The notes beneath the pieces are model-generated. The model was not told the DNA's origin and searched no databases. It was given only the letters and a program-made list of their open reading frames with translations. A stretch of 64,000 bases of DNA, taken from positions 1,815,501 through 1,879,500 of the forward strand of contig NC_014484.1 in NCBI RefSeq assembly GCF_000147075.1, in the 5' to 3' direction. The stretch comes from Spirochaeta thermophila DSM 6192. GTDB lineage: Bacteria; Spirochaetota; Spirochaetia; Winmispirales; Winmispiraceae. Of the stretch, positions 22,453 to 34,165 are shown in pieces (position 1 is the first letter of the stretch; each line of letters opens with the position of its first letter). The position numbers and the translations under genes were made by a program.

Positions 22453-24720
22453 ATGGAGACACACGTCATAGGATTTCCCCGCATAGGTGCCCGCAGGGAA
22501 CTCAAGAAAGCAGTGGAGGCATACTGGAAAGGCGCTACAGACCGGTCTTCGCTCGAAGACACGGGAAAGCGGCTCATGGAATATGCATGGAAGACCCAGA
22601 AGGAGGCGGGACTCTCACTGGTGACAGTGGGTGACTTCTCGTACTACGACCATATCCTCGACATGGCCCTCGCGCTCTCCCTCATCCCCTCGCGATTCAA
22701 GAAAGAGGACTACCCCCACGACCTCGACCTCTCCTTCGCCCTCGCGCGGGGCGACAGGGAGCGCAACATCCCGGCCCTCGACATGACCAAGTGGTTCGAT
22801 ACCAACTACCACTACATCGTACCTGAACTGGAAGACTCCTCCTCGATCCGACTCGCGGAACACACCCGGATCGAGGAACAGGTGCATCTCGCCCGAAGTC
22901 TCGGCTACCGGGTGAAGGCCACCCTCCCCGGTCCCCTCACCTTCCTCTCCCTCGCCCGCGAGACCGGGGAGCGCCCCAGATGGTCCTTCGCCGACGAGGT
23001 GGGTAAGGCCTATGCGACGCTGCTCTCCCGTCTCGCCCCGCACTGCGAGTGGATACAGCTGGAGGAGCCGATCCTCGCCACCGACCTCTCCTCCCCCCAG
23101 AAGGAGGCATGGGCCTCGATCTACGCCCAGCTCTCCGACCACACGGAGAGGATCCTGGTGGCCTGCTACTTCGGGCCAGTGGGAGAGAACATCGAGCTCC
23201 TCCTCTCCTCCGGCGTACGGGGCATCCACCTCGACCTCACACGCGAGGGGGTCGAGGTCCTCTCCCGGATTCCCGAAGACAGGGTCGTCTCCCTCGGGGT
23301 GATAGACGGACGGAACGTCTGGCGGGCCGACCTGGAGGCGGCGGCCCGGATAGTCGAACCGCAGGTGGCCCGAAGAGGAGACGACAAGACGATGCTCTCC
23401 TCTTCGTGCTCGCTCCTCCATGTGCCCATCGACCTCGAGCTCGAGACAGCACTCCCCGAGTACATCAAGGAATGGCTCGCCTTCGCCGTGCAAAAGTGCA
23501 GGGAACTGAGTCTCCTCGCACGTTACCTCACGAACGGAGAGACAGGTCCGGAATGGGAGAGCTCACGAAAGGCAGCCGAGGCGAGGAGACGGCATCCCGA
23601 GGTCATGATCCCCCGCGTGAGGGAACGCGTGGCATCCGTCACAGGTACACAGCTTACCCGCTCCCTTCCCTTTGCCGATCGCAAGCCCCTCCAGCAGGAG
23701 AAGCTGGGCCTTCCACTCTTCCCCACCACCACCATCGGCTCCTTCCCCCAGACCCCCGAGATCCGCAAGGTGAGAGCCCGGTTCAAGAGGGGGGAGATCA
23801 CCCGGGAGGAGTACGAGACCTATATGGAGGGCGAGATAGAGAGGGTCATACGGGAACAGGAGGCCCTCGGCCTGGACGTCCTGGTGCACGGAGAGCCGGA
23901 ACGGAACGATATGGTGGAGTACTTCGCAGAACTCCTGCCGGGCTACTGCACCACGACCAATGGGTGGGTGCAGAGCTATGGGACTCGATGCGTGAAGCCC
24001 CCCATCATCTACGGCGACGTCCACCGCTCCGAGCCCATGACCATTCGGTGGATCACCTACGCCCAGTCGCTCACCTCCCGGCCGGTGAAAGGCATGCTCA
24101 CGGGGCCGGTCACCATGCTCAAGTGGAGTTTCGTCCGGGACGACATCCCCGCCCGGGACGTCGCGTTCCAGATCGCCCTCGCACTCAGGGACGAGGTGGC
24201 GGACCTCGAAGCTCAGGGCATAACCGTCATCCAGATAGACGAGCCCGCCATCAGGGAGGGGCTCCCCCTGAGAAGGACGCAGTGGGAGGAGTATCTCACC
24301 TGGGCCACCGACGCCTTCCGCCTCGCGAGCTCGGGGGCGGCCCCCGACACACAGATCCACACCCACATGTGTTACAGCGATTTCGAGGACATCATCGAGT
24401 GGATCGCCCGGCTCGACGCCGACGTCATCAGCATAGAGGCCTCGCGGAGCGACATGCAGCTCCTCGAGGCGTTCCACCGCTTCGACTACCCCAACGACAT
24501 CGGACCGGGTGTATACGACGTGCACAGTCCCAGGATCCCCGGCATCGAGGAGATGTACCGCCTCCTCAAGAAGGCCCTCGAGGTGATCGCCCCCGGGCAG
24601 CTCTGGGTGAACCCTGATTGCGGACTCAAGACCCGTGCCTGGGAGGAGGTGCGTCCCTCCCTCACCAACATGGTGGAAGCCGCTCGGAGACTCAGGAAGG
24701 AGTACGACGGGAGGAAATGA
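22453..24720 (+). CDS. metE: Cobalamin-independent methionine synthase
   Basis: 755 residues, transfers methyl from 5-methyl-THF-triglutamate to homocysteine. N-terminal barrel starts at THVIGFPRIGARRELKKAVE. The C-terminal catalytic barrel begins near residue 430 (TTTIGSFPQTPEIRKVRARF) and keeps the zinc ligands: His and Cys in HTHMCYSDF, Glu in VISIEASRSD, Cys in NPDCGLKTR. Full length, own promoter, AAAGGAG upstream of the ATG. No MetF or MetH is visible nearby. Confidence 0.97.
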   Translation: METHVIGFPRIGARRELKKAVEAYWKGATDRSSLEDTGKRLMEYAWKTQKEAGLSLVTVGDFSYYDHILDMALALSLIPSRFKKEDYPHDLDLSFALARGDRERNIPALDMTKWFDTNYHYIVPELEDSSSIRLAEHTRIEEQVHLARSLGYRVKATLPGPLTFLSLARETGERPRWSFADEVGKAYATLLSRLAPHCEWIQLEEPILATDLSSPQKEAWASIYAQLSDHTERILVACYFGPVGENIELLLSSGVRGIHLDLTREGVEVLSRIPEDRVVSLGVIDGRNVWRADLEAAARIVEPQVARRGDDKTMLSSSCSLLHVPIDLELETALPEYIKEWLAFAVQKCRELSLLARYLTNGETGPEWESSRKAAEARRRHPEVMIPRVRERVASVTGTQLTRSLPFADRKPLQQEKLGLPLFPTTTIGSFPQTPEIRKVRARFKRGEITREEYETYMEGEIERVIREQEALGLDVLVHGEPERNDMVEYFAELLPGYCTTTNGWVQSYGTRCVKPPIIYGDVHRSEPMTIRWITYAQSLTSRPVKGMLTGPVTMLKWSFVRDDIPARDVAFQIALALRDEVADLEAQGITVIQIDEPAIREGLPLRRTQWEEYLTWATDAFRLASSGAAPDTQIHTHMCYSDFEDIIEWIARLDADVISIEASRSDMQLLEAFHRFDYPNDIGPGVYDVHSPRIPGIEEMYRLLKKALEVIAPGQLWVNPDCGLKTRAWEEVRPSLTNMVEAARRLRKEYDGRK

Positions 24721-24730
24721 AAAACTTTCC

Positions 24731-24759
24731 TTGACAAATAACCCAAGCCCTTATATGGT
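24731..24759 (+). promoter_or_regulatory. Promoter of the DbpA-domain gene
   Basis: Consensus TTGACA (24731-24736), 17 bases, TATGGT (24754-24759). Leader about 26 bases with GAGGGA before the GTG. Confidence 0.8.
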
Positions 24760-24791
24760 AAAAGCATATACTCAACGGTGAGGGATTCCAA

Positions 24792-26270
24792 GTGGGACGA
24801 CAGACAAAGAGCACGCTGCAGAACGGTATCCCTGCGATCTTCCAGAATCCTGAGGTCGAGGCCCTTCTTGCGAAAGGGAAGGATGTGATCATCCAGGTGG
24901 AAGAGGGGGAATTCCCCTACCCCGCCTACTTCTTCAGAGGGTTCCCCAAGGTGGTGGAACGTGAAGGTCTCTACCTCACCCCCACGGAACAGCGCATCAT
25001 CGATCTCATCCGCGAGGCAGGGATGCACCCTGCCTCGCTTCCCGAGCTCCTCTTCCTGGGGGGCAGGACCACCCCGAGACGGGAGGCCCAGGCGCTGGCC
25101 TTCCCCTCCCACGCCGTCTGCTGTACCGCCACACGCCTCATAGACCATATACGGAGGGACAACCTCTCCCTCCAGCACATCAGGCGTGTCGTGATGGAAT
25201 ATCCGCAGGACGAAGAGACCGCGGAGATATTCAAGGCCGATGTGGAGTTCGTTCTCTCGAAGGTGCCTTCACACCCGCAGTGCATCGTCCTCGCCTCCGA
25301 CCCGCAACGTGCAGTCGCCGACCTCAAGGACGTCCTCTCCCATCCGCAGATCGTGCCCCTCTCCAGCTGGAAGAAGAGCCGAACCGAAAAGGCGTGGTTT
25401 CCCCTGGAGGCCCCCGACCGGATGGCCGAGGCCGTAGCCGACCTCATCCTGAGCCATGACCTCAAGAAGGTGATCTGCTACGTCCCCGACACGCTCACCG
25501 AGAAGCTGAGACGGACATTCATCAGGATGCACATCTCCTTCGCTTCCATACTCCGGGACTCCTCGCCCGGGTCAGAGGATCGCGCACTCAAGAAGTTCAA
25601 GACCCTCGACGCCGAGGTGCTCCTCCTGGAAGCCCCCCGCCCATTCCCCTCCCTCTACACGGCAAAGGCCGTCATCTTCGCCGGTATTCCGGGTCCGGAG
25701 ATCTTCCTCCAGGGGAAACGCTGTCTGAGCGAGCACATACCTCTCACACACCTGTTCCTCCTCGCCCCCCAGAGCGAGGAGGAGCGGATCCATGAGCTCG
25801 AAAGCCGGGTGGGCTCGATCGCACGGCGGGAACCTCCTGACGAGGAGGCCGTGGCGAGGGGATTCCTCGAGCGCGTCCTGGAATGCCTCGACAGGCAAAA
25901 CCCTCATGCCATCGAACCATACAGGAAGGCCTTCAGGAAGGCGGTGCCCTTCTTCCGCAGGGCGGACGTGGCCGCCTATCTCGTACGGAACATCCTTTCC
26001 GACTCTGCCCGGAGCCTCCTGCCCATGCAGGACATATTCTTCAGCATGGGGAAGAACCGCAAGATCTTTCCGGAAGATCTCAAGGAACTCGTGCTCTCGG
26101 TGGAGGGGCTCACCGAAGAGGACATCGGGGAGATCCGGGTGCTCGACAACTATTCCTTCGTGGAAGTGAGCGAGCCGTTCGCGGAGAAGGTCATCTCCAC
26201 CCTCAACGGTACGGACTTCAAGGGGAAACGGCTCACGGTCAACTACGGCAAACGGAGGAGTGGGAGGTGA
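24792..26270 (+). CDS. Degenerate DEAD-box helicase with DbpA RNA-binding domain (pseudo-helicase)
   Basis: 492 residues. The C-terminal 75 residues (LVLSVEGLTEEDIGEIRV to KGKRLTVNYGK) are a DbpA-type RRM-like domain that binds rRNA. The body still aligns by eye to a DEAD helicase core: LFLGGRTTPRREAQAL and HAVCCTATRLIDHIRRDNL match the GG/Ib region (TPGR is TATR). DEAD is replaced by MEYPQDEE, SAT by LAS, and the HRxGRxGR motif is missing around LQGKRCLSE. The Q motif and Walker A are absent because the N terminus is replaced. ATPase activity is therefore unlikely. A ribosome-assembly or rRNA-binding scaffold is the inferred role. GTG start with own promoter. Confidence 0.85.
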   Translation: MGRQTKSTLQNGIPAIFQNPEVEALLAKGKDVIIQVEEGEFPYPAYFFRGFPKVVEREGLYLTPTEQRIIDLIREAGMHPASLPELLFLGGRTTPRREAQALAFPSHAVCCTATRLIDHIRRDNLSLQHIRRVVMEYPQDEETAEIFKADVEFVLSKVPSHPQCIVLASDPQRAVADLKDVLSHPQIVPLSSWKKSRTEKAWFPLEAPDRMAEAVADLILSHDLKKVICYVPDTLTEKLRRTFIRMHISFASILRDSSPGSEDRALKKFKTLDAEVLLLEAPRPFPSLYTAKAVIFAGIPGPEIFLQGKRCLSEHIPLTHLFLLAPQSEEERIHELESRVGSIARREPPDEEAVARGFLERVLECLDRQNPHAIEPYRKAFRKAVPFFRRADVAAYLVRNILSDSARSLLPMQDIFFSMGKNRKIFPEDLKELVLSVEGLTEEDIGEIRVLDNYSFVEVSEPFAEKVISTLNGTDFKGKRLTVNYGKRRSGR

Positions 26271-27290
26271 TCACCCTCCCATGAGATAGTCCACGCCCAT
26301 GAGGATGAGAATCCCCTCGACCACCACGGAGAGCACGAGCGAGAGCGCCGCCAGGAGGAGGATGCCCCAGCCTTTCCACCACATCCTCGAGAGGCGGGCG
26401 TACCGGTGGATGGTGTAGCCGTGGAGCAGGGGATCGGCGGCCCCCGTCTCCACCTCCCTCACCTCCAAGACGAAGGAATCCCCCTCCTCTCTCACCCTGT
26501 AGCGTCTGTCGCCGACCTCCCATGACGTCCCTTCCTCGGGCCTCCTCCTGCACGCCTTCCATGGGAGGGTCGCCTGCTCATAGGTCACGAGCGCCTTCTT
26601 CCCCATCCTCCATAGCTTCCTGTGGAGGTAGTACCCGAACACGGCAGGAGGGAAGAAGACGGAGACAGGGAGGAACGCCGCGGTGAGGGAGAGGAGTCCC
26701 TCCAGATAGTGGGTCTGGATGGACACGCTGCCGAAGAGGAGCAGGAGCAGCATCCCCACCCCCATGAAAGGCACCGTGAGAGGGTTCCAGAACTCGTTCA
26801 CGCTCCGCGCGGAGGCGATGACCGAATGGACGAGGTGGTGGAGGGGTACACTGTAGAGTACGAGCACGGGTTCCGACTGGGGATCGAGGACGATCTTGCC
26901 GTTCTCCTCCCTCACCCTCCCCGCCAGGTAGACACTCGCCCCCGAAGGAAGGTGATGCACGTCCTCCGCATGGAGCACCTCCATCCCACCCAGGCGGGCC
27001 TCCTCGCTCCCGGGAAGGAGGTGCAGGAGTACACGCGAAAGATCCACCCAGACGAGGAGTCCGTTGCACCTGACCCACAGGTAGTGGTCACGGACCAGGG
27101 AATCCACCGTCCCGAGAAACCGCCACTTCCGCCCCGTCAGAGGTTTGCCGGGACTCCAGAGGGGAAAGAGGAGGGATCCGTAGAACCGTCTCCGCCAGCG
27201 GAACCACCGGTACCACTGGAAGACCCCTCCCCCGCCGGGAATGAGTATGTAGCAGAGGAGAAAGACCGCTGTGAGGATCGTCATGCTCAT
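26271..27290 (-). CDS. Membrane protein of unknown function
   Basis: 339 residues, not recognised. One N-terminal membrane span (ILTAVFLLCYILIPGGGG), a soluble part of about 130 residues resembling an OB or NfeD-like beta region (LLVWVDLSRVLL, GASVYLAGRVREENGKIVL), two central spans (MGVGMLLLLLFGSV, FLPVSVFFPPAVFGYYL), another soluble piece and a C-terminal span (ILLLAALSLVLSVVVEGILIL). Layout like E3-ligase-type or GIDE/NfeD-like proteins, low certainty. Divergent from the metallo-hydrolase gene. Its stop codon touches that of the DbpA-domain gene. ATG at 27284 is an alternative start. Confidence 0.65.
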   Translation of the reverse strand: MSMTILTAVFLLCYILIPGGGGVFQWYRWFRWRRRFYGSLLFPLWSPGKPLTGRKWRFLGTVDSLVRDHYLWVRCNGLLVWVDLSRVLLHLLPGSEEARLGGMEVLHAEDVHHLPSGASVYLAGRVREENGKIVLDPQSEPVLVLYSVPLHHLVHSVIASARSVNEFWNPLTVPFMGVGMLLLLLFGSVSIQTHYLEGLLSLTAAFLPVSVFFPPAVFGYYLHRKLWRMGKKALVTYEQATLPWKACRRRPEEGTSWEVGDRRYRVREEGDSFVLEVREVETGAADPLLHGYTIHRYARLSRMWWKGWGILLLAALSLVLSVVVEGILILMGVDYLMGG

Positions 27291-27329: not shown

Positions 27330-28007
27330 ATGGTGCAAAAGCTCGTGGTAGGTCAACTGGCGACCAACGCCTACGTGTACGTGTCCCAGGTCACGGGGAA
27401 GGCCCTCCTCATCGACCCCGGGGCGGATGCCCCACGGATCGTCGACTGGCTGGAAGACCTCGGGATCCTTCCCTCCGCCCTGCTGTGCACCCACGGACAC
27501 ATCGATCACGTGGGAGCCATCGGGCACCTGCTCGACCGCCTTCACCACGATCGGACCATCCCCGTCTTCCTCCACGAGGCCGATCTTCCCCTCCTCGAGG
27601 AAGCCTTCGACCTGCAGCGCGCCTGGCTCCACTCCGCCGGGATACCCACAGCCGATCTCGACCGCCCACCCGTCTCTTCGATCCGTCCCCTCACCGATGG
27701 GAAGGAACTCGACCCCTGGGGCCTTCGTCTCCTCCACACCCCCGGGCACAGCCCCGGCAGTATCTGCCTCTACGCCCCCGAGGAAGGGGTGCTCTTTTCA
27801 GGGGATACGCTCTTCCGGGAAGGGGTGGGAAGGACCGATCTTCCGGGAGGCTCGTGGGAGGCGCTGGAGAGGAGTATCGTCGAACGCCTCTATCCACTTG
27901 GCGACGGGATACGGGTCTATCCGGGGCACGGTCCGGAGACGACACTGGGCCACGAGAAGGGGTGGAACCCCTTCGTGCGGGAGGAGGGGCTCACGCCGAG
28001 AGGTTGA
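27330..28007 (+). CDS. MBL-fold metallo-hydrolase, glyoxalase-II-like
   Basis: 225 residues. Complete binuclear metal site: THGHIDHVGA (HxHxDH), HTPGHSPGS, FSGDTLF and YPGHGPETT. This pattern is that of small GloB-like hydrolases acting on thioesters or related substrates; the exact substrate is unknown. ATG directly after a -10 box. Its last 17 bases overlap the 3' end of the convergent gene at 27991. Confidence 0.88.
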   Translation: MVQKLVVGQLATNAYVYVSQVTGKALLIDPGADAPRIVDWLEDLGILPSALLCTHGHIDHVGAIGHLLDRLHHDRTIPVFLHEADLPLLEEAFDLQRAWLHSAGIPTADLDRPPVSSIRPLTDGKELDPWGLRLLHTPGHSPGSICLYAPEEGVLFSGDTLFREGVGRTDLPGGSWEALERSIVERLYPLGDGIRVYPGHGPETTLGHEKGWNPFVREEGLTPRG

Positions 28008-28477: not shown

Positions 28478-28837
28478 CTACAGTCGCTGCTTTCGCTCCA
28501 GTTCCTTCTGACAGTCCAGACAGTAGAGGGCGTAGGGGATGGCCTCGAGGCGCTCCCGTGGGATGGGCTTTCCGTCCTTGAGGCAGTAGCCGTACTTTCC
28601 GTTCTCTATGCGGGCAAGGGCCGCATCGATCTGGTTGAGTCGCCGCAACTCGTGGCCCTCGAGGGAATTGAGGATCCTCCTGTCCAGATCGTTCGCCGCG
28701 ATGTCCACCAGATCCTTTTCGTTTTCGTTCGAGATGAGCTCCTCGAGTTCCTCGTTCTCCTGTGCGAGATTCATGAGGATCTCCCTCTTCATCTCAAGGA
28801 GCTTCTCCTTCATCTGCTCAAGAAAGGCTCTATCCAC
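28478..28837 (-). CDS. DksA/TraR-family zinc-finger protein with altered Cys set
   Basis: 119 residues. Coiled-coil hairpin ([20 protein letters not shown] onward) then the DksA finger [20 protein letters not shown] and [12 protein letters not shown]. In the canonical finger the first pair is CxxC; here it is CLKD, so one zinc ligand is Asp or lost (CxxD...CxxC). Members bind the RNA polymerase secondary channel and modulate initiation with ppGpp. Acidic residues at the expected coiled-coil tip are not obvious. GTG start chosen, GGAGG 6 bases upstream. Divergent from infA. Confidence 0.85.
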
Positions 28838-28911
28838 CAAGGGCCTCCTCCAGTCTTTTTGGCGCCTTAAAGTGCAGGAAAAACCCCAAAATGTCAAGTG
28901 GAGCGCGGGAG

Positions 28912-28940
28912 TTGACAGCACTAAGTGCTTGCTATATAGT
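28912..28940 (+). promoter_or_regulatory. infA promoter with a palindrome in the spacer
   Basis: Consensus TTGACA (28912-28917), 17 bases, TATAGT (28935-28940). The spacer contains the 13-bp palindrome AGCACT-A-AGTGCT (28917-28929), a candidate operator. Confidence 0.85.
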
Positions 28941-28974
28941 AGGTTTAATTACAATTCCATCCAGAGGAGGCTCT

Positions 28975-29193
28975 GTGACCAAAGAAGATGCGATCGAAGT
29001 GGAGGGGATCGTCAGAGAGGCGTTGCCCAACACCATGTTTCGAGTGGAGCTCGAGAACGGACACCTGATTCTCGCCCATCTTTCGGGAAAGATGAGAAAG
29101 TATTTCATCCGAATCGTCCCCGGTGACAGGGTGAAAGTCGCCCTCTCACCTTATGACCTCACCCGCGGAAGGATCATCTACCGGGAACGCTGA
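28975..29193 (+). CDS. infA: Translation initiation factor IF-1
   Basis: 72 residues, one OB fold (S1-like), binds the ribosomal A site during initiation. Sequence is near-canonical: [63 protein letters not shown] start with AGAGGAGG four bases upstream. Stand-alone gene, not in a ribosomal protein operon. Its last 16 bases overlap the convergent Smr gene. Confidence 0.98.
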
Positions 29194-29626: not shown

Positions 29627-31633
29627 TCACCTCCCGATGTACCACTGCAGCGCATCCCGTCTCACCCAGCCGCTCGTTCCCATCCCCGTGTGGACACGGA
29701 CATAGTCCTGATACCGGTAGTCGGTCCTCACCGCCGTACCCGCAGGACAGATCTGCAATCGACGCCCTTCCTCTTCGGGAACCGCCTGGAGAGGGGTCTC
29801 GGTCAGTACCACGGCCTGCGGCTCGCGCAAGACCACGGCCCGGTAAAAGACGTACCCTCCCGCCGCGATCGCAGCCGAGAGGGAGAGGAGCAGGGATATG
29901 AGGAGCACAGGAGCGCGCCACCGCATGTACGTGGCGAAGAGTAGACCCGACAGGGTGCATCCTGTCATCACGCCCAACCAGGGGATGCCGGGCGGAAACG
30001 CGGCGGGAAGCGCCGCCTGATATTGAAGGCCGATCTCCTCCTCCATACGAGAGAGGGCCTCCCGGAGGATGACGGCCATGGGCGCCTGCACGCATGCACG
30101 CCTCAGGTGATAGACGGCCCTCCCGTGCTCGCCGAGGGCATAGGCCGCCATGGCCGCGTCGTAGTGGATTCCCGGAGCCGGATCCGCTTCGGCCAGAGCC
30201 TCCTGGAAGGCCTCGTAGGCCTTGCCGTAGTCCTCTCGTGCGAGGAAGGCGAGCCCCTCCTGGAGTTTCTGCTCCGGAAGCGGGACATCGGGGGGGACGA
30301 GGAGTATCCACAGCAGGAGTCCAGCCCATAAGACGGTGCACACGGCCAGGGCGTACCCTCCGAGCCGCTTCCATGGAACGAGGAGGGAGAGCAGGGCCAA
30401 GCCCATGGGGATGAGGAGGAAGAGCACCCGCAGATCCTTCACGATCCACCTCCCCTGCAAGGACCGCACCTCCTCCAGGGAGAGGAAGGTGAGGGCCGGT
30501 GTGACGTTCTCCTCCCTCACCTCCACGGCGAGCGAGGTCCCCCCGGCGCTCCTCACCCCGTTCTGTCCGGGGGGGACATAGCGGAAAGGAGGGATGCGGA
30601 CGGTGAGCCTGCCCTCCTCGACGGCCCTGAACCAATAGGTACGCTGCCGCCATCCGCTGTAGCCCTCCGTCGACGCCCTGTACTCCTCGTCCTCCTCCTC
30701 GCGGACCAGGACGGCGAGATCCCCGGGATCAGGCTGGGGAAACGAGAGAAAGGGGAAGTTCCCCACCCCTTTCACGAGGAGCCGTACCCCGAAGAGTTCC
30801 CCCACCTGTACCGCGGAGACCGTACGGGTGGCATAGAACTCGAACCGCCCTACCCCATGGAGAGAAGAGGACTGGGGAAGCGGATCGACCCTCACCGTGA
30901 GGGCACCTCCGGACTCCTCCATTCCGCCCAGGATCACCGTCGCAGGGGGCAGCCTGATGGTCCCGGACTCGTAGGGGGTGATCATGAGGGTCTTCACCGG
31001 AACGTGGTACAGGGTGTGCGCCCCCATCGACTCCTCCTCCACAGGAGCGAGCACCGGCACCTCTTCCACGAAGGCCCCCCGGAGCTCGGGAATCTGCACA
31101 CGATCGGGAAGCACGATCCTGTCGAGATGACGGATGTAGAGGGTGACCGGCACGCTCTGGCGGGCGAGGACCCGCTCCGGGGCCTCCCACTCCACATCGT
31201 AGGCCACCTTGTCGATGTCCCCCCTGTAGGACACTTCTATGAGGAAGGGATCGGTCTGGTACACCTTCCCTCCCCGCCGCACCTGGAAGGGCCCCCATAT
31301 CCTCCTCCCGGATCGAACCCCCTGGAAGGTATAGCGGTACCTCAGCATGGGCTTCCCTTCCGGATCCTTCACGGGCTGTACGAGTGGTCCCACCAGAAGG
31401 GAGAGGATCTCCGGAACCGGCGGGGGGATCACCTCCACGGCCTCCCCTGGCGCATCGAGGGGGATGGAGAGATCGAGCGTGAGACGCTCGGTCCTCCTGA
31501 TGCGTGCCGCCGACACCTGTACGGTGGGTAGATCGGCCGAGGGTTCCTGGGCTCCTGCAGGGAACAACACGGCCAGGAGCACTACCAGTCCTGCCAGGTG
31601 CCTTCCGGCGGTGCGAACTCTCTGGCCTTCCAT
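29627..31633 (-). CDS. BatD-BatE fusion: oxygen-tolerance protein with TPR and SH3-like tail
   Basis: 668 residues. Signal peptide (VVLLAVLFPAGAQ), then BatD-type beta-domain repeats (VQVSAARIRRTERLTLDLSI, GAYTFQGVRSGRR-like YRYTFQGVRSGRRIWGP, VLARQSVPVTLYI) to about residue 400, two membrane spans, TPR repeats (KLQEGLAFLAREDYGKAYEA, GIHYDAAMAAYALGEHGRA) as in BatE, two more spans, and a C-terminal SH3-like segment (YQDYVRVHTGMGTSGWVRRD). In Bacteroides and Leptospira BatD and BatE are separate proteins of an envelope complex. Start ATG chosen for AAGGAG upstream; it lies 52 bases inside batC. Confidence 0.88.
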   Translation of the reverse strand: MEGQRVRTAGRHLAGLVVLLAVLFPAGAQEPSADLPTVQVSAARIRRTERLTLDLSIPLDAPGEAVEVIPPPVPEILSLLVGPLVQPVKDPEGKPMLRYRYTFQGVRSGRRIWGPFQVRRGGKVYQTDPFLIEVSYRGDIDKVAYDVEWEAPERVLARQSVPVTLYIRHLDRIVLPDRVQIPELRGAFVEEVPVLAPVEEESMGAHTLYHVPVKTLMITPYESGTIRLPPATVILGGMEESGGALTVRVDPLPQSSSLHGVGRFEFYATRTVSAVQVGELFGVRLLVKGVGNFPFLSFPQPDPGDLAVLVREEEDEEYRASTEGYSGWRQRTYWFRAVEEGRLTVRIPPFRYVPPGQNGVRSAGGTSLAVEVREENVTPALTFLSLEEVRSLQGRWIVKDLRVLFLLIPMGLALLSLLVPWKRLGGYALAVCTVLWAGLLLWILLVPPDVPLPEQKLQEGLAFLAREDYGKAYEAFQEALAEADPAPGIHYDAAMAAYALGEHGRAVYHLRRACVQAPMAVILREALSRMEEEIGLQYQAALPAAFPPGIPWLGVMTGCTLSGLLFATYMRWRAPVLLISLLLSLSAAIAAGGYVFYRAVVLREPQAVVLTETPLQAVPEEEGRRLQICPAGTAVRTDYRYQDYVRVHTGMGTSGWVRRDALQWYIGR

Positions 31634-32178
31634 CGCGCCTGCTCCTTCTTTCTGAGATAGTCGAGGAGGTAGATTCCCCTCTCCGGAGGCGCATCCCTCG
31701 TGCCCCCCTGCTCCGAGACCTGCGGGGCCGCGGAGAAGGCGGAGAGCTTGAGATACGCGAGCTCGAGGTTGACACGGACATCCCTGTCGTCCGGTTCGAG
31801 TCTGAGGGCCTGGAGAAAGTAGAGGTAGGCGTTCTGATACTCTCCGTGATCGTAGTAGTAGAGACCGAGATTGTAGAACGCAGAAAACCTCGTCTCAGGG
31901 TCCTTGGCCGATTCGGCCTGCTTCCACTTCGCAAATGCGGTCTCATCCCCCAGGGCATGGTACACAGTGCCGAGGTTGTAGGCGATGACGCTCCCCTCCT
32001 CTCCCTCCATGTCCGCAAAGGGAAGGTAGGCGACGAGCGCATCCTGGTAATGCCCCCGGGAATAGGCATAGGCGCCCTGGAGCATCTTCAGATGGAACGA
32101 GGCCTGTGTACATCCCGGGAGGAGGAACAGGACGAGGAAGAGCAGCAGCGGTATGCCCGCACGGATCGAACCCTTCAT
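31582..32178 (-). CDS. batC: BatC-type TPR lipoprotein
   Basis: 198 residues. Lipobox LLPGC, then tandem TPRs: GAYAYSRGHYQDALVAYLPF, VIAYNLGTVYHALGDE, FSAFYNLGLYYYDHGEYQNA, YFLQALRLEPDDRDVRVNLE. Predicted periplasmic lipoprotein scaffold of the Bat complex. ATG overlaps the batB stop (ATGA); GGGAGGTGG upstream. Confidence 0.86.
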   Translation of the reverse strand: MKGSIRAGIPLLLFLVLFLLPGCTQASFHLKMLQGAYAYSRGHYQDALVAYLPFADMEGEEGSVIAYNLGTVYHALGDETAFAKWKQAESAKDPETRFSAFYNLGLYYYDHGEYQNAYLYFLQALRLEPDDRDVRVNLELAYLKLSAFSAAPQVSEQGGTRDAPPERGIYLLDYLRKKEQARWKAREFAPPEGTWQDW

Positions 32179-33170
32179 GGCTCCACCTCCCATCGCCACC
32201 CTCTCACGAGGAGCATGAGGGAGAAGGCCAGGAAGGAGAGCCCCACGAACAGGGGATAGCGTCTTGCCGGGACGAGGCGTATCCCTTCCCGCTCCTCCCT
32301 CGCGATGGTTTCCTCAATGGTGGAGACCACGTGCTGGAAGGTCTGTCCCTCTGCATCCCTCACGGAGAAGAAGCGGCCACCCGTGATCTCCGCGATCCTC
32401 TTGAGGAGCGATGCATCGAGCCGCGAGATCACCGGTTCGCCCGAAGGCTTCTTGAGGACATCCTCTCCCTCGAGGGGAACGGGCCCCCCCGACTCGGTCC
32501 CTATTCCCACGGTGTGGACCGCAACCCCCAGATTCCGCGCCAGTTCCAGTACGGGACCGATCTCCCCCGTGAGGGCCTCTCCGTCCGAGAGGAGGATCAC
32601 CAGCCGCTGCCGGTTGCTCTGCTGGGGAAAGGCCTCCAGGGCCCGGGAGAGCCCGGATGCCACGTCGGTACCAGGCGACCTCAGGAGTACCGGAGTGAGG
32701 AGGCCTATCGCGTCCTCGAGCCCCAGAAGGTCAGGGGTAAGGGGGAGGAGGAGTTCTCCCTTCCCTTTGAAAGCCACCACTCCCCAGCGCGCTCCGGAGA
32801 TGCGCGAGACGAGCATGAGGGCGATCTCCTTGGCCACCTCCAATCGCGAAGGGGGCACATCGCGAACGAGCATGCTCCTCGAGATGTCGAAGAGGAGAAC
32901 GATATCCGCATTCCTTCTCTTCACCGTCTCCTGCTCCATACCCCAGAACGGTTCTGCATAGGCTACGAGAAGACCGGCAATCCCCAGAAGGAGGAAGACC
33001 TGGACGAGGAACTCCCTGACGAGGAAACGGGAGACCAGATGCTCCTTCCTGTCTCTCCCTTTGAGGAGCAGGAGTTCCTTCAGCCGCCGGTAGGAACACC
33101 ACACGAGAAAGAGGAGGACGGGCGCGAGCGCCAGCAGGAACCACAGACGAACCGGAAAGATGAACTTCAC
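32175..33170 (-). CDS. batB: BatB, von Willebrand factor A domain membrane protein
   Basis: 331 residues: two N-terminal spans (LWFLLALAPVLLFLVWCSY and QVFLLLGIAGLLVAYA), a VWA domain with intact MIDAS (DISRS; DGEALTG; conserved Thr in SPGTDVASGL), and a C-terminal span (PLFVGLSFLAFSLMLLV). The VWA faces the periplasm or outer side. GTG start with GGAGGTGTT; GTGA overlap with batA. Confidence 0.92.
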   Translation of the reverse strand: MKFIFPVRLWFLLALAPVLLFLVWCSYRRLKELLLLKGRDRKEHLVSRFLVREFLVQVFLLLGIAGLLVAYAEPFWGMEQETVKRRNADIVLLFDISRSMLVRDVPPSRLEVAKEIALMLVSRISGARWGVVAFKGKGELLLPLTPDLLGLEDAIGLLTPVLLRSPGTDVASGLSRALEAFPQQSNRQRLVILLSDGEALTGEIGPVLELARNLGVAVHTVGIGTESGGPVPLEGEDVLKKPSGEPVISRLDASLLKRIAEITGGRFFSVRDAEGQTFQHVVSTIEETIAREEREGIRLVPARRYPLFVGLSFLAFSLMLLVRGWRWEVEP

Positions 33171-34165
33171 AACACCTCCCCGAGCACCGCGTAGTGGAGG
33201 AGAAACCAGAGGGCTGCACACAGGAGGGCCATCCGGAGGAGACCGGCGTGAAGGGAGACGACACGCACCGCAAGCTGCCGCCGCACATCGGCCGTGGCCG
33301 TAGCCCCGATGTACTGGAAGATCCTGTGGAGCGAGGTGGGGGTGTACCCGGAGAAGAACTGTCCGCCCGATATCTCAGCTATCCTCCTCAGGGTCTCTTC
33401 GTCGTACCCTTCTTCGAGCACCCCTGCGTACCGGGTACCGGTGCTGGGGTCGATCACATCGAGGCTCACAGGGCGGTCGCTTCCCACCCCCACCGTGAAC
33501 AGGGGGATACCGAGCTCCCTGGCCATCTCAGCCGCCGTCTCGGGCAGGATCTCACCGGTGGTGTTCTTGCCGTCCGTGAGGATCACGACGGCCCTGAAGG
33601 ATGCGTTCACACGCGAGAGGTGGAGGAGCGATGTCCCCACGCCCATACCGAGGGCCGTACCGTCACCGAGGGAGAAGAGACGGACGGCTTCCAGCCTTTC
33701 CAGGAAATACTCCACATCGATCGTGGGGGGCACCTCCAGGAGCGCTTCCTTCCCGAACAGGACGAGTCCGACCGCCATGTGGGGATACGAACGCACGAAT
33801 CCCCTGATGACCTCACGGGCCACCTGGAACCGCTGCCTCCCCGGAATATCCATCGCACCCATGCTCGGGGAGACATCGAGGGCTATGACGATGGTGGGAG
33901 GATCCGAGACCACCACCTGTTCCCGTTCCACCAGGTAGGGGCCCGAGAGGATGAGCACCATCAGGGAAAGCATACCCCACAGGGCCGCATCCCGGAGGAG
34001 GGAGGCGATCCTGTACCACAGCGGCAGGCCGGGGGGGATGTCGGAACCCCAGAAGACGAAGGGGAAACGCACCGCGCTCCCACACCCCCTCCTCCTCATC
34101 CATACGAACAGGCACACGAGCACGACGAAGAGCCAGAGGGCGCCGGGACGATAAAAACCTATCAT
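33167..34165 (-). CDS. batA: BatA, von Willebrand factor A domain membrane protein
   Basis: 332 residues: two N-terminal spans (ALWLFVVLVCLFVW; ALWGMLSLMVLILSG), VWA with MIDAS DVSPS, GDGTALGMG and LTDGKNTTGE, and one C-terminal span. Paralogue of batB; the two probably form a heteromeric complex served by the MoxR ATPase. ATGA overlap with the upstream gene. Confidence 0.93.
   Translation of the reverse strand: MIGFYRPGALWLFVVLVCLFVWMRRRGCGSAVRFPFVFWGSDIPPGLPLWYRIASLLRDAALWGMLSLMVLILSGPYLVEREQVVVSDPPTIVIALDVSPSMGAMDIPGRQRFQVAREVIRGFVRSYPHMAVGLVLFGKEALLEVPPTIDVEYFLERLEAVRLFSLGDGTALGMGVGTSLLHLSRVNASFRAVVILTDGKNTTGEILPETAAEMARELGIPLFTVGVGSDRPVSLDVIDPSTGTRYAGVLEEGYDEETLRRIAEISGGQFFSGYTPTSLHRIFQYIGATATADVRRQLAVRVVSLHAGLLRMALLCAALWFLLHYAVLGEVL

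Follow-up and report, generated by a model that had tools for sequence, protein, structure and literature searches.

The window, a stretch of 64,000 nucleotides of the Spirochaeta thermophila DSM 6192 genome, carries downstream of metE, whose end lies at 24720, a gene for a protein in which two RecA-like domains, a three-helix domain and a DbpA-type RNA-binding domain (RBD) follow one another (Table 1). The initial annotation had placed an open reading frame with a DbpA domain here, and its coordinates proved right: DbpA (PF03880) is the only Pfam domain assigned to the protein (residues 415-483, E 9e-19, above the curated cut-off). A strong consensus promoter had also been described and taken as a sign that the gene is used. 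The sequence is as described and is the sole match within 2.2 kb, where shuffled sequence would give 0.3, but a promoter-like site proves no expression, and we regard it as a conserved promoter-like sequence from which the gene may be expressed.

Table 1. Features of the putative pseudohelicase gene and its neighbourhood (positions in the window)
Feature	Position	Strand	Basis or remark
Promoter-like sequence, sigma-70-like, TTGACA-17-TATGGT	24731..24759	+	10/12 consensus bases; identical in congener G041
Likely ribosome-binding site, GAGGG	24780..24784	+	7 bases upstream of the GTG start; sequence reading
Putative pseudohelicase gene	24792..26270	+	492 aa, GTG start, stop included
RecA1-like domain, residues 12-193	24825..25370	+	AlphaFold2, Foldseek; family profile against the PDB
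Degenerate Walker A, residues 36-43, VEEGEFPY for AQTGTGKT	24897..24920	+	motif alignment
Motif Ib and next helix, residues 112-124, TATRLIDHIRRDN	25125..25163	+	family alignment
Degenerate motif II, residues 134-139, VMEYPQ for VLDEAD	25191..25208	+	motif alignment
Retained F..D..F...K block, residues 147-157	25230..25262	+	family alignment
RecA2-like domain, residues 194-348, without motif V or VI	25371..25835	+	model; motif alignment; conservation
Three-helix domain, residues 349-403	25836..26000	+	predicted helices; start aligned to CshA
DbpA-type RBD, residues 412-488	26025..26255	+	Pfam; aligned to YxiN RBD 2g0c
Convergent neighbour, about 339 aa, without Pfam match	26271..27290	-	syntenic across Spirochaetia; context
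MBL-fold hydrolase, second syntenic neighbour	27330..28007	+	Lactamase_B 1e-28; context
DksA/TraR zinc-finger protein, third syntenic neighbour	28478..28921	-	context
Translation initiation factor IF-1, fourth syntenic neighbour	28891..29193	+	true start probably further in; context

Helicase homology, predicted fold and catalytic motifs

Taken alone, the window protein shows weak helicase similarity: NCBIfam returned DbpA (2e-17) and CshA (1e-7), with 62.9 bits for the DbpA equivalog, which misses its cut-off of 524 bits, and phmmer against the PDB found CshA at 1e-9. Neither DEAD nor Helicase_C of Pfam matched the protein itself, so that of the three domains for which the initial annotation had proposed an HMM search only DbpA was recovered. 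The profile of its relatives matched CshA in the PDB at 1.4e-37 (best), DeaD at 3e-30 and DbpA at 5e-27, while 36 of the 57 family members matched Pfam DEAD unaided (best 3e-26) and seven matched Helicase_C. Given the CshA match of the profile and the 36 members with a DEAD match, helicase homology is beyond chance and can be regarded as secure.

An AlphaFold2 model of the window protein, built with the 57 family sequences, contains two RecA-like domains, the three-helix domain (351-402) and the RBD, with a mean pLDDT of 90.2 and a pTM of 0.73, and Foldseek matched it in the PDB to DbpA (7pmq, 7e-22, best), CshA (5e-19) and Hera (1e-16). The structure prediction therefore contains both RecA-like folds that had been expected, in agreement with the earlier claim that the helicase fold is retained. 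We read the low global TM-scores (about 0.31, with an rmsd near 22) as a sign that the domains are arranged differently or that their arrangement is uncertain, and the domain geometry of the model is not for interpretation.

In the model, the three-helix domain takes the position of the dimerization domain of Hera and CshA, the alignment to CshA being partial. The order of core, putative dimerization domain and C-terminal tail is the same as in helicases of this type, from which the window protein differs in being without Walker A, DEAD, SAT, V and VI. Its RBD belongs to the same Pfam family as that of DbpA and YxiN, but unlike these the protein appears catalytically dead, has an extra helical domain and carries Ser436 for Lys427. 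The DbpA domain that had been described is present, but a three-helix domain separates it from the core, an arrangement known from proteins of the Hera/CshA type, and the window protein is therefore no plain DbpA.

Compared with nine intact spirochaete helicases, the protein has, besides the remnants of Walker A and motif II, PTEQR for PTREL at motif Ia, TATR for TPGR at motif Ib and ASD for SAT at motif III, and motif V and motif VI, the latter with the arginine finger, are absent. The alignment thereby bears out the claimed losses of Walker A, DEAD, SAT and the arginine-finger motif, as well as the retention of the GG region (LGGRT), and TATRLIDHIRR is likewise still present. The Q motif had been listed as lost too, but its final Q aligns (PAIFQ), so this loss is less clear-cut than the others.

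The same losses, as the initial annotation had anticipated for orthologues, were found in every relative examined: of 57 examined family members with remaining helicase sequence, not one is an intact helicase, and the DEAD box is present in 0/26 relatives with two RecA domains. Since several relatives retain the GKT of Walker A and the full-length L145 has a near-canonical P-loop (SISGEGKT), the nucleotide motifs have decayed to unequal degrees, and some members may still bind ATP. In relatives with one RecA domain (e.g., L162 and L166), motif II reads VVDEPE or VIDEPD, with the D-E pair kept and Walker A and RecA2 gone.

In DEAD-box proteins, motif Ib and the subsequent helix face the RNA. 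In this family the block has the consensus R-x-IDH[IL]RR, and its I, D, H and both R (H119 and I117 included) are invariant in 24 full-length relatives, in which the F..D..F...K block is also retained (F147 in 23/24, D150 in 24/24, F153 in 21/24 and K157 in 23/24). Between these 24 proteins, all of them dead, pairwise identity averages 0.49 for the Ib block, 0.48 for the RBD and 0.42 for the helical domain, and it is 0.22 for the N-terminal RecA1 and 0.15 for RecA2, the least conserved part. A near-invariant Ib block beside decayed nucleotide motifs suggests that an RNA contact has been retained without ATP.

Against its orthologue in the congener G041 (96% identical), the window gene has a dN/dS of 0.11, with 12 synonymous and no non-synonymous changes in the RBD and values of 0.19 and 0.11 for the RecA domains; it is maintained by purifying selection and not in decay. 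As a yardstick metE was unhelpful, being too conserved, with few changes (dS 0.03, dN/dS 0.43). Judged from sequence and model, the gene would encode a pseudohelicase, with the fold kept, the catalytic motifs lost and the gene retained by selection. The proposed passage from a helicase to an RNA-binding protein without ATP motifs finds support in the predicted RecA folds, the absent motifs, the purifying selection and the losses in orthologues.

Distribution and domain loss across Spirochaetia

A profile of the tail matched 330 of 391 Spirochaetia genomes and 112 of 128 genera, and a few of the matches may be true helicases with the same RBD. It had no match in one family (f4), whose genomes measure about 1-1.8 Mb. 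On genome contigs, a single-sequence scan found no relatives and an alignment-based scan found 234, of which 80 were kept. The orthologues fall into a form with two dead RecA domains and the tail (489-555 aa), one with a single dead RecA domain and the tail (about 340-440 aa) and a short one of the tail alone (about 150-310 aa), in a sample that includes many metagenome assemblies and mechanically chosen start codons. An intermediate, L162, is predicted (pLDDT 81) to have a complete RecA1, with TM-scores of up to 0.81 to solved RecA1 domains, and no RecA2.

All three forms share a neighbourhood in which the gene is followed by the convergent gene, the MBL-fold gene, the DksA-like gene and IF-1. 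For 62 named loci the downstream sequence extended over 2.5 kb or more, and 51 of these had the first or second neighbour in the same orientation (16/19 for the two-RecA, 16/19 for the one-RecA and 19/24 for the short form). In a search for an intact helicase at the syntenic locus, the neighbour genes lay beside none of 65 helicase loci, a weak negative, as most of these had flanks of only 1.5 kb. The conserved neighbourhood in the window also includes a run resembling a Bat operon (BatD-like, TPR and two VWA-domain genes; 29627-34165, minus strand).

A tree built from the tail by a quick search over 129 columns, with some long branches, groups the three forms in one clade (SH-aLRT 98) that excludes the active helicases (92). 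Passing between the forms takes at least 12 changes on this tree; with only well-supported branches counted, at least five changes to the short state and at least three to the one-RecA state are required. Loss of RecA2, or of both RecA domains, is repeated independently at one locus, and the tail is always kept. Other classes of the phylum have short proteins of 163-169 aa in which the DbpA RBD stands alone (L069-L074), encoded next to a methyltransferase-fold gene; in this quick tree they are sister to the Spirochaetia family.

A tail-only member of 228 aa, 32% identical, lies near the map end of a 1.14-Mb genome (G049, L223:5745-6431, minus strand). In Treponema pallidum, TPANIC_1029, a 'DbpA RNA binding domain protein', is among the highly expressed genes (PMC8525777). 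It is very probably a tail-only orthologue, probably the counterpart of the 228-aa member, and differs from the window protein in having neither RecA domain.

DEAD-box proteins of the source genome

The source genome (G000), that of a thermophile and a single contig of 2,472,645 bp with 99.99% completeness, has one DbpA domain, that of the window protein. Its eight strongest DEAD matches appear to be Mfd, RecG, PriA, Cas3, HrpA (DEAH), DinG, UvrB and one further DEAD-box protein, and one extra Helicase_C match appears XPB-like. This further DEAD-box protein, of 439 aa, is the second degenerate one of the genome and is encoded outside the window (C1:1539455-1540771, minus strand; loci L007/L118/L224). 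It has DAQYLHARVA at Walker A, PIHEL, VPRT for TPGR, DETH for DEAD (DEAH in the congener), SSA for SAT, TSESTSRNLHV and YRIRFLEE, and is without the arginine finger; its dN/dS against the congener is 0.18, and its relatives in other Spirochaetia, about 30% identical, have intact motifs.

An intact-helicase query retrieved just the two degenerate proteins from the source genome and G041, and just the first of them from G138 (E about 1e-12), while it reached E-values under 1e-86 in the other Spirochaetia tested with few exceptions (G182, G070 and, with a weak, fragmentary match, G134). By these sequence comparisons, one genus would carry a pair of DEAD-box pseudohelicases and lack a competent DEAD-box RNA helicase, HrpA remaining, and the cell of the source organism apparently manages without a functional one. 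The suggestion that the window protein regulates a true DbpA was therefore rejected for the source organism, whose genome encodes neither a second DbpA domain nor an intact DEAD-box RNA helicase.

RNA target, possible role and alternatives

The DbpA-type RBDs of YxiN and Hera bind fragments of 23S rRNA (PMC3695512), which makes an rRNA address plausible for the window protein, in which the guanine-binding IGxI turn is conserved. Hera, whose tail is related, binds GGGPyr stretches, is thought to be non-specific to ribosomes, and does not read the hairpin-92 loop (PMC3695512), and the window protein has Ser436 where YxiN contacts a base through Lys427; hairpin-92 specificity is thus not to be assumed, and the RNA could be other than 23S rRNA.

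On balance, we consider it fairly probable that the protein, derived from an ancient dead helicase, binds RNA as a scaffold or chaperone, independently of ATP and perhaps as a dimer, possibly in 50S assembly. Its ancestor would have been a DEAD-box RNA helicase of the CshA/DeaD/DbpA group, with core, helical domain and RBD, in which catalysis was lost long ago. The RBD would act as the address, tethering the protein to structured RNA, most plausibly the 23S rRNA of assembling 50S subunits, the helical domain may pair copies of the protein, as in Hera (PMC3695512), and the conserved Ib face of the surviving RecA1 could provide a second, nucleotide-free RNA contact. In the source genome, the pseudohelicase would act without a catalytically intact DEAD-box partner. 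The RecA remnants may add little, as many lineages are without them. A wider claim, which we advance only tentatively, is that of a class-wide ancient pseudohelicase from which RecA was removed stepwise, whose Ib face and RBD would form a nucleotide-independent clamp for ribosome assembly, and which, with the second pseudohelicase, would have replaced the DEAD-box catalysis of one genus.

That many lineages have a tail-only orthologue at this locus, that RecA was lost several times and that RecA2 is poorly conserved is also consistent with an alternative that we regard as possible but rather doubtful, in which the RBD tail would be the whole functional unit, an RRM-like binder or chaperone of many RNAs (mRNA, sRNA), and the RecA remnants would be inert and headed for deletion; Hera-type RBDs do bind general single-stranded G-rich stretches (PMC3695512). 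However, where RecA1 survives, the Ib block matches the RBD in conservation, and both RecA domains are under purifying selection between the congeners, which argues that they are not inert there. A role as partner or regulator of active DEAD-box helicases, through pairing by the helical domain or competition for an RNA site, would suit most other Spirochaetia tested, in which intact DEAD-box helicases, some with a similar tail, accompany the family member; it is nevertheless improbable, since G000, G041 and G138 have no intact DEAD-box helicase and yet the gene is under selection, and HrpA, although present, differs in architecture.

It is more improbable still that the protein is a diverged but active NTPase with non-canonical motifs. 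The GKT of some relatives, the P-loop of L145 and the D-E at motif II (VVDEPE) in many one-RecA forms would favor such an activity, but the window protein has lost all five motifs from Walker A to VI listed above, the DEAD box is missing from all 26 two-RecA members, and forms with one RecA domain are without the second half of the active site. The missing catalytic motifs and the truncations in relatives might also be taken for those of a decaying pseudogene, a reading that is scarcely credible and was rejected on the dN/dS of the gene and the RBD free of non-synonymous change; moreover, the frame is open, the promoter-like site is identical in the congener, and the family extends to 112/128 genera.

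Only two pseudohelicases had been proposed according to a 2022 paper, Deinococcus PriA and the eukaryotic Utp25 (PMC9539457). Utp25/Def is a DEAD-box pseudohelicase of the SSU processome, with vestigial motifs and a function in ribosome assembly (PMC9539457). The window protein resembles it in its DEAD-box fold and vestigial motifs, but the role at the ribosome is shown for Utp25 and proposed here, and Utp25, unlike the window family, belongs to the eukaryotic 40S pathway, has no DbpA RBD and comes with no reported domain-wise dismantling series. Deinococcus PriA is bacterial like the window protein, has lost its ATPase and still binds nucleic acid (PMC9539457), but it is a DNA replication-restart protein and not of the DEAD-box type. 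In the open-access literature, where Utp25 and a Treponema annotation were all that came up, we found no published bacterial DEAD-box pseudohelicase family, nor the family described here.

With orthologues of the two-RecA, one-RecA and tail-only forms at a single locus, this class-wide family of bacterial RNA pseudohelicases would make up a natural deletion series in which the ATP-free functions of DEAD-box proteins may be studied. The findings also point to a bacterial genus in which all DEAD-box proteins would be catalytically dead, and for the treponemes they supply a working hypothesis on an RNA-binding protein that is highly expressed and still uncharacterised.
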